DNA from: Pontibacter pudoricolor
GTDB lineage: Bacteria; Bacteroidota; Bacteroidia; Cytophagales; Hymenobacteraceae
DNA length: 64,000 nt
Direction: 5' to 3'
Assembly: GCF_010092985.1 (NCBI RefSeq)
Contig: NZ_CP048106.1
Span: forward strand, 1-64,000
Part shown: positions 9,470-61,690 of the stretch, piece by piece
Position numbering within the stretch: position 1 is the first letter of the stretch
Layout of the letters: each line of letters begins with the position of its first letter
Made by a program: the position numbers and the translations under genes
Notes under the pieces: model-generated
Database searches by the model: none
Told to the model about the DNA's origin: nothing
Seen by the model: only the letters and a program-made list of their open reading frames with translations

Positions 9470-10060
9470 ACCTCACCCCAGCCCTCTCATTTTGAAGAGG
9501 ACCCTACCCCAAGACAGGAGAGTGAGTTAACCCACCCATGCCCTCCCAAGAGGGGAATTCCGGCTGTTGTTATAGTTAAGTGTATTGTTTTATAGTTACC
9601 GTTTGTCATCACCCTGTCCCTTCGAAGGGGACATTCTGCTACTGCTCGCCCAACTGTCATTTCGACCAGCGGGAGAAATCTGAATTTGCTATAGTTACAG
9701 TCCACGAACAGGACAGGTTTACCTGTCCTACAGAACTACCACCACGATAAATCTCGAAGCTTATTGGTTCAAACTATAGACAGGTGGTTGCTATGCGAAA
9801 GATTACAGTTTTTCTGTGAGGCGCCTTGTAGATTTCCGGTGCCGCAGGCATTTCGAGGAACGAGAAAAGGAAATGTACACCGCGCTGAACAGGAAAACGG
9901 GGCCGCTCGGCCCGAGAGCACCAAAGCAAACTATAGAACTATAGGTGAGTAAAGCTCCCAGGATCAGAAGTGATTTGAAACTATGGCTTGGTTCGGATAG
10001 TAAGGAATCAAACTATAGAATCCAGATTTCTCCTGACGTCGAAATGACAAAGAAGGAATT
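9470..10060 (+). repeat. Repeat island 1: mosaic of palindromic modules
   Basis: In order I see: an A module (CCCCA...CAGGAGAGTGAG, 9472-9525), B (AACCCACCC...GAGGGGAATT, about 9528-9566), C (GTCATCACCCTGTCCCTTCG, 9604-9640), D (CTGTCATTTCGACCAGCGGG, 9654-9683), E (GGACAGGTTTACCTGTCC, 9711-9728), F (CACCACGATAA, 9732-9750), the folded element G (9821-9926), H (GTGAGTAAAGCTCCCAGGAT, 9945-9964) and I (inverse of D, near 10024-10052). Modules are separated by TATAGTT or AACTATAG. Short ORFs here are chance readings. Island order matches those at 50.6 and 60.8 kb. Confidence 0.85.
9821..9926 (+). repeat. Structured repeat element G, copy 1 (degenerate)
   Basis: The helices are: GCGC 9821-9824 with GCGC 9882-9885; GTAGATTTCC 9828-9837 with GGAAATGTAC 9869-9878 (one mismatch); TGCC 9840-9843 with GGCA 9847-9850; TTTC 9851-9854 with GAAA 9864-9867 around loop GAGGAACGA. 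The closing CTTTGG arm seen in other copies is lost, and the 3' part is shorter, but CCAAAG remains at 9921-9926. Confidence 0.7.
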
Positions 10061-23377: not shown

Positions 23378-24727
23378 ATGACATTTAACGAATTGAACCT
23401 GATAGAGCCTATCCTAAACGCTCTTAAAACAGAAGGATACACCAACCCCACCCCGATACAGCAAAAAGCAATCCCTTACATACTTCAGAAACGCGACCTG
23501 TTAGGTTGTGCGCAAACCGGTACTGGTAAAACAGCTGCCTTTGCCATCCCGATTCTGCAGTTACTGCATGCCTTGCCACAGGACCGTAACAAGCGAACTA
23601 TAAAGTCGCTTATACTGACGCCAACCCGTGAGCTAGCTTTACAGATTGGTGAGAGCTTTGGTGCTTATGGCCGTAACACTGGCTTAAAGCACACAGTAAT
23701 TTTTGGCGGCGTATCGCAGCACCCGCAGACCGAAGCCCTGAAAAGAGGCGTAGATATACTGGTTGCAACACCGGGCCGTTTACTCGACCTGATGGCGCAG
23801 AAGTTTGTAGACCTGAGTCACTTGCAGATATTTGTACTGGATGAAGCGGACCGCATGCTGGACATGGGTTTTGTGCATGATGTACGCAAAGTACTGAACG
23901 TGATACCAGCGAAAAGACAATCCTTGTTCTTCTCGGCCACCATGGCACCGGAAATCATGAAGCTGGCGGATAACATATTGGTTGATCCTGCTAAAGTAGA
24001 AGTTACACCGGTATCAAGTACGGCACACACTATAAAGCAGGCAGTTTACTATGTAAAGAAAGCCGATAAGAAAAACCTGCTGATCCATTTACTGAAAGGC
24101 AATGAAATTGACCGTGCCCTGGTGTTTACCAGAACCAAACATGGCGCCGACAGAGTAGTGAAAGATATGGCAAAAGCGGGCGTACAGGCCGAAGCTATAC
24201 ACGGAAACAAATCACAGAATGCCCGCGTGCGTGCCCTGGATAATTTTAAAGCCAGCCGTACCCGCGTTTTAGTTGCTACTGATATTGCAGCCCGTGGTAT
24301 TGATGTGGATGATCTGAACCACGTGATCAACTATGAATTGCCGAACGAGCCCGAAACCTACGTGCACCGCATTGGCCGTACAGGCCGTGCCGGCGCAAGC
24401 GGTACAGCCCTGTCGTTTTGCGATGGGGAAGAAACAGCCTACCTGGTAAGCATTCAGAAACTGATCTCGAAGAACGTACCGGTTATAGATAACCACCCGT
24501 ACCCGATGACTGCCAAAGATTTTGCAGAAGCAGCATCTACCATGAAGGAGCAGAAGAAAAAAGGTGGCAACGGTGGCAGAAGCCGCTGGGGTAACAAGCC
24601 TGCAGCTGGTGGAAGCACTGGCGGTAATTTCAGCACTCAGAACAGAGGCAGTAATGGCGGCGGCGGACAGCGAACTGGTGGTAACCGCAGCAATGGCAAC
24701 CGAAACAGATCGCATCAGGCGTCGTAA
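23378..24727 (+). CDS. DEAD-box ATP-dependent RNA helicase (RhlE-like)
   Basis: The 449-aa protein has the motifs in order: Q motif ([14 protein letters not shown]), Walker [14 protein letters not shown] near 47, PTRELALQ near 88, TPGR near 132, DEAD in [13 protein letters not shown] near 153, SAT in FFSATM near 187, and [10 protein letters not shown] near 330. The C-terminal ~60 residues are a Gly/Arg/Asn-rich tail of the RGG type that binds RNA. It fits RhlE-type helicases, which unwind structured RNA, often in ribosome assembly or cold adaptation. A long leader precedes it and a terminator follows. Confidence 0.95.
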
Positions 24728-25057: not shown

Positions 25058-25176
25058 CTTTGGTGCCCTCACGGCCGGGAGGCCCCGTCTTCGGGCATCG
25101 CGCTGCGCGAATCTCTTTTGCTCGTGCCTCGCAATGCCTGTCGGCACCAGACATTCACAAGGCGCTCAACCCAAAG
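25058..25176 (-). repeat. Structured repeat element G, copy 2 (minus strand)
   Basis: On the minus strand, the closing pair CTTTGG (25176-25171) / CCAAAG (25063-25058) encloses GAATGTCT (25156-25149) with AGAGATTC (25116-25109), one mismatch; TGCC / GGCA with loop GACA; TTGC / GCAA around loop GAGGCACGA (25130-25122); and CCCG / CGGG. The same helices occur with different bases in the copies at 9.8, 51.0 and 61.3 kb. Confidence 0.8.
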
Positions 25177-25520
25177 ACTGTGATCAGTTCGATAGTAACT
25201 GCATTATCAATAGTTTGAGAAGCTATAGTTGCATCGCCTTATCGTGGTCGTAATTCCGTAGGGACAGGTCGCGACCTGTCCGTGGATGGGCTGAAACTAT
25301 AGAACGGTAACTCAAACTATAACTATAGCAGAAAGTCCCCCTTCGAAGGGGGCAGGGGGATGACAAACGGAAACTATAGCAACTTCAGAAATTCCCCTCC
25401 TGGGAGGGGTAGGGGTGGGTTAAAACCGCAACTACAGAACTATAGCGTAAATTATAGCTTTGCAGAATTGTCCCCCTTGAGGGCAGGGCCGTTTCACTCT
25501 TTTAATTCAACCTCTTTAAT

Positions 25521-25642
25521 GCCCTCGCTCGCGTCCCGCGAGTGTGAGCTACTTAGTGGCGTCCCGCCACTTATGCCGCAGGCACAGGTTAAAGCGGCCA
25601 GAGTCCGCAGGTAATTCACACTCGCGGGACGCGAGCGAGGGC
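25521..25642. repeat. 122-bp element closed by a perfect 27-bp inverted repeat
   Basis: 25521-25547 (starting GCCCTCGCTCGCGTCCCGCG) is the exact inverse of 25616-25642. The interior holds three hairpins: AGTGGCG / CGCCACT (25555-25571), TGCC-GCA-GGCA (25574-25584) and GCGG / CCGC (25594-25608). No ORF. The length and the TGCC-GCA-GGCA hairpin recall element G copy 1, so it may be a relative. Confidence 0.75.
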
Positions 25643-25931
25643 AAGGACATAAAACATTAACAGTGTATAGCAGAATTGTCCCCTTGAAGAAAAGTGTGAA
25701 CGGGAATTCGAAAGTTGAGAGCCGGGCTCAACAGGGTGTGTCAAAAGGCAACTATAAAACTATAGCCACCAACTATAACACCAGCCGAAATTCCCCTCTC
25801 GGGAGGGGCAGGGGTGGGTTAGCAATAGACCGGAACTAGAAGTACAGAAACTGGCGTGCGATGTGCAAGCTGCCGGGGTTTAATTCCTGAAATCTTAAAA
25901 AGGAGCATTATGAAAGATGCGTCAATACATT

Positions 25932-26831
25932 TTATTCAGTTGTTCCGACATTCTGCCGCGTTCTGCTTACCAAATACACTCCCGCAAAAATCAGCAGGGC
26001 ATAAATCCCTTTCTGTAGGGTAAAAACATCTTTCCCGAAACCGATAGCCACAACTATAGCCATAAGCGGCTGCAGGTAAATATAAGCGCCCACCAGTGAC
26101 GGATTGGCATAGCGCAGTGCCCAGGTATTGAACAAGTAAGCAACTATAGTTACAGCCAGCACCATAAACACGATCGCCCACCATATCTCCGTAGGAAACG
26201 AACTATAATCCGGAGCCAAAACCTGGTTAAAACCGAAAGGCACAACTATAAGGGCACCTACAGCAAAGATGCGGCTAACTATGGTAAAAGCATTGTACTT
26301 CTGCATCAGTGGCTTAACCAGCACCAGGTACAATCCATAGCTTGCAGCGTTTAAAATGATGAGCAGGTCGCCCCACAAATTACCGGTAGCAGCTTCGCCG
26401 CGAGATGTATAGATCAGCAGAAAAGCACCCGAACAGGCCAGTACGATACCGCCCACCTTGCGCAAACTTACCCGCTCCCGCAACAGAATAGCAGAAAAAA
26501 TGAGCACAATGATCGGCACTATGACCATAAGCAGCGCCGCGTTAATAGGAGAGGTGAGGTTAAGGCCACCGAAGAAACAGAGTTGGTTGATGGCGATGCC
26601 GGTAATGCCACAAAGTACAGACCGCATGTTATCGGCCCAGCCTACTATCTTTTCTTTTACCACCAGCCGCGAAAATATTCCGAAAAAGATTGCCGCCGAC
26701 ACTACCCGGATCACGATAAGGCCATAAGGACCTACATAATAAGGCATTACTTCTTTGGCTATGCTATAGTTACTGCCGTATATTAGGGCCACCAGGAAAA
26801 GCGCTCCGTGCACCTGTACTTGTTTACTCAT
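25932..26831 (-). CDS. EamA/DMT-family transporter
   Basis: The 299-aa membrane protein has ten hydrophobic segments made of two EamA repeats; the first begins FLVALIYGSNYSIAKEVMPY and the second YGLYLVLVKPLMQKYNAFTI. Drug/metabolite transporters of this type export amino acids, metabolites or drugs. The C-terminus is short and charged (TRQNVGTTE). It is divergent from the AI-2E transporter. Confidence 0.9.
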   Translation of the reverse strand: MSKQVQVHGALFLVALIYGSNYSIAKEVMPYYVGPYGLIVIRVVSAAIFFGIFSRLVVKEKIVGWADNMRSVLCGITGIAINQLCFFGGLNLTSPINAALLMVIVPIIVLIFSAILLRERVSLRKVGGIVLACSGAFLLIYTSRGEAATGNLWGDLLIILNAASYGLYLVLVKPLMQKYNAFTIVSRIFAVGALIVVPFGFNQVLAPDYSSFPTEIWWAIVFMVLAVTIVAYLFNTWALRYANPSLVGAYIYLQPLMAIVVAIGFGKDVFTLQKGIYALLIFAGVYLVSRTRQNVGTTE

Positions 26832-32689: not shown

Positions 32690-33530
32690 TCCCGAGCATT
32701 AGGCGAGGGATCTTATGTACTCTATAGCTGCTGGATTTACCCCATCCCATCCTTCCCCTAAAAACAGGGGAAAGAGCCTGGCTATCGTTCTATAGTTTAC
32801 TTCCCTGTCATTTCGAACAGCGGGAGAAATCTGAGTTCGATAGCTATAGTTATTACAACTGGAAACAAGACGCAACATATTGCGTCTCTACAATCCCAAA
32901 TCCCAATTTGTAGGGACAGGTCGCGACCTGTCCGATCTTGGTCTGTAACTATAATACTACAACTGTAACTATAATGAACTCAGATTTCTCCTTGCGTCGA
33001 AATGACAGGTGGGGAGGCAGTAGCAGAAAAGCCCCCTTTTGAATGGGGCAGGGGATGCAAAACGGAAACTATAGAACTATAGCCGTAAACTATAGGAAAG
33101 GCAAAAAATCCCCTCTTGGGAGGGGCAGGGGTGGGTTAAAACGAGAACTATAGGACTAAAACTTCAAACTATAGCAGTAGCAGTTAAAGCTTCCCTCCTT
33201 GGACTACCGAGAAGCGATTTCGAAGGTAGCGAGCGTAGCTCTGAGGGATAGGGGTGGTTGGAGTAACGCCAACTATAAAACTATAAGTTGAACTATAGCA
33301 AAAGCCTCATCCCAGAAATCCCTTAATCCCGGTTCAGACAAGTCCTGTCCATTACGGGACAGTTGAGTTACAAACCCAACATTCACTCCAAGTCACGAGT
33401 CTGGAGACTCGCGCCAGCAGTACGAACACTAAAACTATAGTTCCCCCTTAAATTCCCTCTCCTGTTTTTAGGAGAGGGCCGGGGTGAGGTAAAATTTCAG
33501 CCAAGCGCATCCGCAGCAAAAAACTTTTAT
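32690..33530. repeat. Repeat island 3: mosaic lacking element G
   Basis: I see A (CCTTCCCCTAAAAACAGGGG, 32752-32771), D (CTGTCATTTCGAACAGCGGG, 32806-32825), an AGACGCAACATATTGCGTCT palindrome (32869-32888), E (GGACAGGTCGCGACCTGTCC, 32914-32933), I (near 32981-33007), inverted C (33028-33062), inverted B (33106-33138), a GGATT-type unit (33308-33343) and a GAGTCTGGAGACTC palindrome (33398-33411). About eleven CTATAG hexamers occur in this kilobase. The folded ~120-nt element is absent. No gene is present in this 1-kb gap. Confidence 0.82.
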
Positions 33531-60779: not shown

Positions 60780-61690
60780 ATAGTCCGTGCTGCTGGCGCG
60801 AGTCTCCGGACTCGTGATTATGCTGGTGTTGCGTATCCTGACGCAACTGGCCCGGTAGGGACAGCCATTGTCTGAACCGGGATTAAGTGAGATTTAAAGG
60901 ATTTCTGGGATTGGGTTACTGCTTTAGTTGTGGCTATAGTTTTATAGTTGGCGTTTTACCCCTTCCCAGCCTTCCCCTAACAACAGGGGAAGGAGCTTTA
61001 CGGCCTTTGTTATAGTTAGATTTTGTTTTATAGTTGTCGTCATAACCCACCCCTGCCCCTCCCAAGAGGGGAATTCCGGCTGTTGCTATAGTTTTAGTTA
61101 TCGTTTTTTAGTTTCCGTTTGTCATCCCCCTACCCCTTCAAAGGGGGACTTTCTGCTAATGCTTTTTCGACTTGTCATTTCGACTAGCGGGAGAAATCTG
61201 AGGTTGCTATAGTTATAGCCCACAAACAGGACAGGTCGCGACCTGTCCCTACGGAAATACAACCACGATAAAGCGATGCAACTATAGCTGTTCAAGTAAT
61301 TATAATGAAACTATCGAACTGATCTCAGTCTTTGGGTTGAGCGCCTTTGCTTTCTTGCGGTGCCGTCAGGCAACCCGAGGCACGAGGGTAGCAAGAAAGC
61401 AGCAGCGCGATGCCCGAAGACGGGGCCTCCCGGCCGTGAGGGCACCAAAGCTGGATTGAAACATTAGGTAAGTAGAGCTCCCAGGATTAGAAGTGACTAT
61501 GGAATATGAGGCTTGGTTCTAAGTGCAGAGTCGCAAACTATAGAATCCAGATTTCTCACTTTGTTCGAAATGACAAAAGTGAAACTATAGAACACATAAT
61601 GTTTCTCGACTGTGTTGGCTCTTTTCGACTCGCGCCTCAAGAATGCTCTGGATGACAAATGGAAGTGATAAAACTATAACGCAGACGCTA
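60780..61690 (+). repeat. Repeat island 5: complete composite unit
   Basis: It begins with a GCGAGTCTCCGGACTCGTG palindrome (60798-60816) and GGATT-type units (60870-60915). Then A (60958-60998), B (AACCCACCCCTGCCCCTCCC, 61044 onward), C (GTCATCCCCCTACCCCTTCA, 61121 onward), D (TTGTCATTTCGACTAGCGGG, 61173 onward), E (GGACAGGTCGCGACCTGTCC, 61229-61248), F (ACAACCACGATAAAGCGATG, 61259-61278), folded element G (61330-61450), H (GTAAGTAGAGCTCCCAGGAT, 61467 onward) and I (near 61549-61574). The order equals islands 1 and 4. No gene lies in this 1.1-kb gap. Confidence 0.88.
61330..61450 (+). repeat. Structured repeat element G, copy 4
   Basis: CTTTGG 61330-61335 pairs with CCAAAG 61445-61450; GCGC 61341-61344 with 61405-61408; GCTTTCTTGC 61349-61358 with GCAAGAAAGC 61391-61400, a perfect 10 bp of quite different sequence from copies 1 and 3; TGCC / GGCA over GTCA; ACCC 61373-61376 with GGGT 61386-61389 over the loop GAGGCACGA. 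These are compensatory replacements on both arms. Confidence 0.85.

Follow-up and report, generated by a model that had tools for sequence, protein, structure and literature searches.

A 124-bp REPIN-like element in Pontibacter and a RAYT transposase gene flanked by the same REP hairpins

The element and its immediate surroundings

The stretch of DNA analyzed here (the window) covers the initial 64 kb of a 4.34-Mb single-contig Pontibacter genome (G000). Between two converging genes, encoding a DEAD-box helicase (positions 23378 to 24727, plus strand) and an EamA transporter (25932 to 26831, minus strand), lies a 124-bp element with 28-nt arms (25520 to 25547 and 25616 to 25643) that are perfectly complementary; the arms reach 33 nt at 94% identity if two mismatches are allowed. 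An earlier note on this DNA had described perfect 27-bp arms over 122 bp; the perfect repeat was confirmed, and the element proved one base longer at each end. The three inner hairpins named there were found as claimed, and all three places paired in the DNA fold of the interior (Table 1). Each end of the element is a hairpin unit with a tetranucleotide at its foot (REP), and the two inverted REPs are able to form a hairpin with one another, as in a REPIN.

The inverted repeat is beyond chance. It was the only perfect inverted repeat of at least 20 nt with arm starts no more than 150 bp apart in the window, and 50 simulated 64-kb sequences (first-order Markov) contained no comparable repeat. 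The RNA fold of positions 25511 to 25652 had an energy of −91.5 kcal/mol; shuffled sequences averaged −47.5 (z, −10.8), and none of 200 did as well. No Rfam family was found in the 64-kb window at the gathering threshold.

TABLE 1 Features of the element, by position in the window
Feature	Coordinates	Strand	Basis or remark
REPIN-like element, 124 bp	25520..25643	+	28-nt perfect arms; 14 further near-full copies elsewhere in the genome
Left REP hairpin, read on the minus strand toward the element end	25520..25548	-	Exact match to REP template CTCACACTCGCGGGACGCGAGCGAGGGCA
Left REP foot tetranucleotide GTAG (plus strand, CTAC)	25549..25552	-	Sequence
Right REP foot tetranucleotide GTAA	25611..25614	+	Sequence
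Right REP hairpin	25615..25643	+	1 substitution relative to REP template
Inner hairpin 1, AGTGGCG-TCC-CGCCACT	25555..25571	+	DNA fold; few changes in most of 20 aligned copies
Inner hairpin 2, TGCC-GCA-GGCA	25574..25584	+	DNA fold; not retained in the five most diverged of 20 aligned copies
Inner hairpin 3, GCGG-CCAGAGT-CCGC (GCGG-N7-CCGC)	25594..25608	+	DNA fold; inside the half common to the RAYT flanks
Module of another repeat family, outside the element and often its host	25481..25499	+	1 mismatch to GGGCAGGGCCGTTTCATTC

A further suggestion of the earlier note, kinship with an element G, was not supported. The element was compared by BLAST with four stretches whose positions as element G are guesses (25058 to 25150 and repeats near 9780, 50970, and 61300), and the matches covered 7 to 13 nt only. 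The best was an exact 11-nt hairpin, TGCCGCAGGCA, common with the stretch near 9780 (E value of 0.031 in a tiny search), and the likeness stops at that one hairpin.

Copies in the same genome and the repeats around them

Near-full copies of the element occur at least 15 times in its own genome, the window copy included (86 to 100% identical), together with more partial ones. Searched with 9-nt flanks, the element returned at least 98 matching pieces (both strands, partial pieces counted); these copy counts are lower bounds, as 40 of 61 candidates were scored. The 19-nt hairpin core GCTCGCGTCCCGCGAGTGT had 36 exact occurrences in the genome, and the reversed-pattern control had none. Searches of the genome and the genus thus yielded many copies, so that the element is neither unique nor without relatives in the genus, and the earlier description of a structured element with relatives stands; the REP doublet and the transposase described below had gone unrecognized there.

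Alignment, flanks, and gene context rest on 20 own-genome copies, with shorter ones excluded. None of the 20 overlapped an open reading frame (ORF) of at least 120 amino acids (longest-first set of mechanical ORFs), and the element is therefore dispersed, multicopy, and extragenic. By the same mechanical ORFs, 7 copies lay between convergent genes, 11 between tandem genes, and 2 between divergent genes. In two copies (L009 and L013), one arm carries an inverted loop (GGGA for TCCC or the reverse) between near-intact stem halves, as if flipped. Three further loci (L159, L160, and L166) hold shortened copies that lack the interior and retain one hairpin, or half of one, of the element.

The surroundings of the copies bear on how they multiplied. 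Outer flank modules were common to 13 of the 20 copies (16 flank ends in one cluster and 9 in another), and 13 of the 15 near-full copies had the same second palindrome, GTAGGGACAGGTCGCGACCTGTCC, no more than 250 bp away; because of these common flanks and the nearby palindrome, some copies may stem from duplication of larger units. Taken further, duplication or gene conversion of larger mosaic intergenic islands could have been the main route of spread, with a RAYT having a part in the origin of the copies and adding little to their present number, which would be compatible with REPIN identity. Several observations speak against this as the main route. Seven of the 20 copies had no flank in either cluster, though some resemble the module by eye, and many of the best genus copies had flanks unlike the GGGCAGGGCCGTTTCATTC module (20 loci read, short matches excluded). 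That module was found at 27 places (up to 3 mismatches), 14 beside an element match and 13 not, and among 12 of the 13 lone places that were read, 3 run into a shortened element hairpin and 9 show none. These places without the element mark the module as an independent repeat. We regard predominant island duplication as rather unlikely, with the element often nested in another repeat and some copies perhaps multiplied inside larger units.

Other repeats were seen as well. At four of the nine hairpin-less GGGCAGGGCCGTTTCATTC places (L162 to L165), the module looks by eye like the arms of a further inverted repeat, very roughly 150 nt long, and at L157 it is a bare palindrome. The element is often hosted by a distinct palindromic family whose arms resemble GCAGGG[CT]CGTTTCATTC (L157, L162 to L165, and the window module in Table 1). 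The GTAGGGACAGGTCGCGACCTGTCC palindrome, preceded by GTAG, occurs in the window at 25258 to 25281, 32910 to 32933, and 61229 to 61252 and, with up to 2 mismatches allowed, 108 times across the genome (none for the control). Two short words are frequent in the window, both in islands and inside genes: AACTATAG (64 occurrences versus about 1 expected) and CTATAG (111 versus about 14 expected; both expectations first order), possibly a highly iterated motif.

The REP unit and its probable RAYT

REP units were taken from the loci retrieved (for the genus, the best hits) where at least 20 of 28 positions matched a template from the window element, a choice that favors the template's own features. 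Read toward the element end, the 66 own-genome units and the 72 from the genus are built alike, with a foot, a 12-bp mismatched stem, and a 3-nt loop. The foot read [GA]TA[GA] in 49 of the 66 and 51 of the 72 and was strictly GTAG in 19 and 8, respectively. Two stem mismatches, A.C and A.A, were kept in 56 and 56 of the 66 own units and in 68 and 67 of the 72 genus units, and conservation drops right after GGGC[AG]. The loop-closing pair of the genus units was G-C in 39 of 72 and C-G in 32. Across the genus, 94% of cells were paired (at most 91% in 500 shuffles) and 39 cells were changed on both sides (at most 24 in 500 shuffles), counts that refer to sequences and not to events; nearly all of these double changes fell on the loop-closing pair and one outer pair. 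Among own-genome units, pairing showed no excess (0.944 versus a column-shuffle mean of 0.943), and 3 double changes were counted where shuffles reached 4.

A chiefly RNA-level element (a terminator or mRNA stabilizer under selection near gene ends, with spread secondary) would suit the very stable RNA fold, the position of the window copy between converging helicase and EamA genes, and the gene contexts tallied above. The two copies between divergent ORFs and the lack of an Rfam match in the window count against it, and the conserved part is the REP unit, whose two mismatches weaken each local stem; we consider this reading improbable.

Out of five Y1_Tnp ORFs in the genome, one (G000:C1:3535994-3536521) lies between two half-elements. 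Its 176-amino-acid product scored 104.1 bits against the curated RAYT model NF047646 (NCBIfam; cut-off, 80), which it exceeds, and 19.4 bits against the IS200 model (cut-off, 55), below which it falls; the score against Pfam Y1_Tnp was 25 bits (cut-off, 23). By its sequence, the protein has an HUH motif (NHLH, first H at position 59) and a predicted catalytic tyrosine (YIHLNP, Y at position 143), and H59, H61, and Y143 were invariant in six relatives. The gene is bounded by perfect 54-nt inverted repeats matching the element ends, and both REPs beside it carry GTAG. The left arm in the window is identical to these flank repeats over 33 nt, and the right half matches them over 50 to 53 nt at 92 to 94%; the genome thus holds a RAYT with the same REP beside its gene. 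The suggestion of recent origin or active maintenance made in the earlier note agrees with near-full copies 86 to 98% identical to the window copy and with the open transposase frame.

A MITE belonging to a classical DDE insertion sequence and moved double-stranded via 28-bp terminal inverted repeats would explain the perfect terminal inverted repeats, the small size, the intergenic copies, and the absence of notable coding capacity, but it was rejected on the gene found between the same ends, a Y1/HUH RAYT, and is highly improbable also in view of the flanks of the 20 copies, where no target-site duplication was apparent by eye, and of the repeated unit, which is in its own right a stem-loop with mismatches and a conserved foot.

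Among named relatives, the one nearest to the RAYT is an orthologue in Pontibacter sp. Tf4 (85% identical), for which a structure model had low to moderate confidence (mean pLDDT, 61.9). The 30 best Foldseek matches of this model in the PDB were all Y1 transposases, one match only having an E value of <0.001, with modest TM-scores (0.41 to 0.49 of query); the E. coli RAYT-REP complex 4er8 (TnpAREP) stood at rank 6 (E value, 1.5e-3). A PDB sequence search with the RAYT returned 15 weak matches up to an E value of 1, all ribosomal protein uS13.

The genome has four other RAYT-like Y1 genes (L036 to L039; G000:C1 near 596572, 4080419, 4117990, and 3396020). Three pass the NF047646 cut-off and the fourth falls short of it (63.7 of 80 bits). 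Three are flanked on both sides by inverted hairpins of their own, and L037 has hairpins on one side only; one genome may hold several RAYT-repeat pairs.

Element DNA was matched in 30 of 50 Pontibacter genomes (match counts are lower bounds, as at most 17 candidates were scored per genome, both strands included). RAYT orthologues at least 69% identical were present in 8 of the 50, the own one included (the other seven, 69 to 85%), and all eight genes are flanked on both sides by inverted REPs of the element kind. Five of the eight adjoin the same prolyl oligopeptidase and acyl-ACP thioesterase genes (1.5 kb each side searched), and these common neighbors suggest vertical descent of the RAYT; neither gene lay within 1.5 kb at the other three loci. 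Inverted REPs of the element kind also flank RAYT relatives in Sabulibacter ruber (65% identical) and in two metagenome-assembled genomes (64% and 55%). A relative at 46% identity has a different flanking hairpin, again preceded by GTAG.

The orthologue was not found in 22 of the 30 genomes with element matches. Six of these 22 (G012, G030, G039, G046, G048, and G049) had no RAYT at the cut-offs used, despite at least 32 matches in G012 and at least 36 in G039. The RAYT-less genomes may have lost the enzyme with the repeats left behind, or their repeats may have been moved by another RAYT. Exact REPs were commoner in the 8 RAYT-bearing genomes than in the other 42 (Mann-Whitney P = 0.0005), also after removal of two flank copies from each (P = 0.0013), both values uncorrected for relatedness. 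A Fisher test of element matches with the RAYT (8 of 8) versus without (22 of 42) gave a P value of 0.011, which is circular and carries no evidential weight because the RAYT's own flanks count as an element match.

We typed the hairpins by their loop-closing pair (type A, G-C; type B, C-G), RAYT flank copies included. Where copies are many, the type of the dispersed copies follows the RAYT's own flanks: A:B counts were 36:1 in the present genome, 34:3 in G038, and 32:3 in G024, where the RAYT is A flanked, and 7:37 in G026 and 0:5 in G006, where it is B flanked. G013 (2:1, both A copies being the RAYT flanks), G045 (3:3), and G041 (2:4) have too few copies to judge; one RAYT flank each in G026 and G041 has a changed stem. 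Because the RAYT-less genomes G019 (11:0) and G018 (11:1) are equally skewed, and G015 (25:6) is skewed as well, the type skew may reflect shared ancestry.

Proposed movement in trans and comparison with known systems

The element is very probably a REPIN, non-autonomous and spread in trans by its cognate RAYT. This reading builds on the observed anatomy, copy family, RAYT identity, RAYT-flanking REPs in eight genomes, and agreement of hairpin type in copy-rich genomes; recognition by the RAYT, single-strand cleavage, movement in trans, and choice of target we infer. A REPIN of this kind would consist of two inverted REP hairpins around a structured spacer, without autonomy of its own. Single-stranded DNA, for example, at the replication fork, would let the REP hairpins form and be recognized by the RAYT, a small HUH/tyrosine (Y1) transposase expected to nick beside them, which would then move the REPIN as a single-stranded piece into other intergenic sites.

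Empty sites were sought both across species and within the own genome. Two G039 copies appear to be missing at the matching places in G030, where the flanking sequences have diverged too far to define junctions; one more query between these genomes gave no information. Within islands of the own genome, flank modules nearly always led into the element at the loci examined first, and no exact empty-site junction was found; nor did any of the module places without the element give one, the bare palindrome at L157 (10 nt between arms) included.

REPINs of Pseudomonas fluorescens SBW25, as described in the cited parts of the account (PMC3116915), are likewise inverted REP pairs around a spacer with alternative long-hairpin and clover folds, extragenic and in many copies, and single-copy RAYT genes there adjoin REPs of their own type. 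Unlike them, the Pontibacter element is 124 bp long with three further hairpins in its spacer and a Bacteroidota host, and perfect 54-nt inverted repeats enclose its RAYT gene. For the SBW25 REPINs, sequencing reads indicating excision have been reported (PMC3116915).

In the parts of the TnpAY1 classification cited here (PMC6006769), subclass 2.6 (RAYT group 5) is placed in Bacteroidetes, with NH[LIV]H, WQ, YIH[QN]NP, and SS motifs, a median length of 179 amino acids, an HuH-Y distance of about 82, and flanking structures called "atypical," weaker and without GT[AG]G. The Pontibacter RAYT (NHLH, WD, YIHLNP, SS, 176 amino acids, distance of 84) resembles this subclass, as described there, in its host group, its NH[LIV]H, YIH-NP tyrosine, and SS motifs, its length, its long HuH-to-Y distance, and structured flanks that recur at other places in the genome. 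It departs from the cited description in having YIHLNP and WD rather than YIH[QN]NP and WQ; three of its relatives have YIHQNP, one of those with WQ. Most Pontibacter REPs also differ from that description in having a 12-bp mismatched stem with [GA]TA[GA] at its foot, and the REPs of the RAYT itself carry GTAG, so the reported absence of GT[AG]G, a description and not a protein criterion, does not hold here. On its sequence, the RAYT is likely a member of group 5/subclass 2.6; most points fit, and WD and YIHLNP do not.

E. coli REPs have a GTAG foot and two conserved stem mismatches in the cited sections (PMC8266576). By that description, the Pontibacter REP resembles the E. coli REP/TnpAREP pair (PMC8266576; PDB 4er8) in its 5' foot tetranucleotide, a stem with two conserved mismatches, and an HUH/Y1 enzyme; its sequence is unrelated, and it differs in a 3-nt loop and a degenerate tetranucleotide (GTAA, GTAG, or ATAG). 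RAYT genes flanked by GTAG repeats or long inverted repeats are also described in a survey of GTAG repeats, REPtrons, and TIRtrons, in which Anabaena variabilis REP dimers sit within other palindromes like the nested Pontibacter element (PMC3733652). In that survey, Proteobacteria, Cyanobacteria, Chloroflexi, and the PVC group are the groups with GTAG repeats, and CGTC repeats are the only ones given for Bacteroidetes (PMC3733652). A search of the open-access literature, with subscription papers outside its scope, found no relevant report on REPs in Pontibacter, none joining Pontibacter, a transposase, and an inverted repeat, and none naming a REP-associated tyrosine transposase together with Bacteroidota.

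The element is thus of an already known kind (RAYT/REPIN), in a new Bacteroidota example with a REP less atypical than described for subclass 2.6. More tentatively, and with doubt somewhat outweighing confidence, Bacteroidota RAYTs of subclass 2.6 might use a hidden canonical REP code, in which a degenerate [GA]TA[GA] guide and two fixed stem mismatches are kept and swaps of the loop-closing pair set which RAYT pairs with which REP. REPINs and their RAYTs are unusual in tying a single-copy transposase to many short elements; the work on them consulted here is mostly from Proteobacteria, and Bacteroidota examples are poorly described. A Bacteroidota case with an enzyme, a guide, and switching hairpins would make REP recognition and the effect of RAYT loss testable outside Proteobacteria. 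If such a code is real, Pontibacter, with its RAYT-bearing, RAYT-less, and hairpin-switched genomes, would be a natural experiment in RAYT-REP coevolution and would also show the fate of REPINs after their RAYT is lost.
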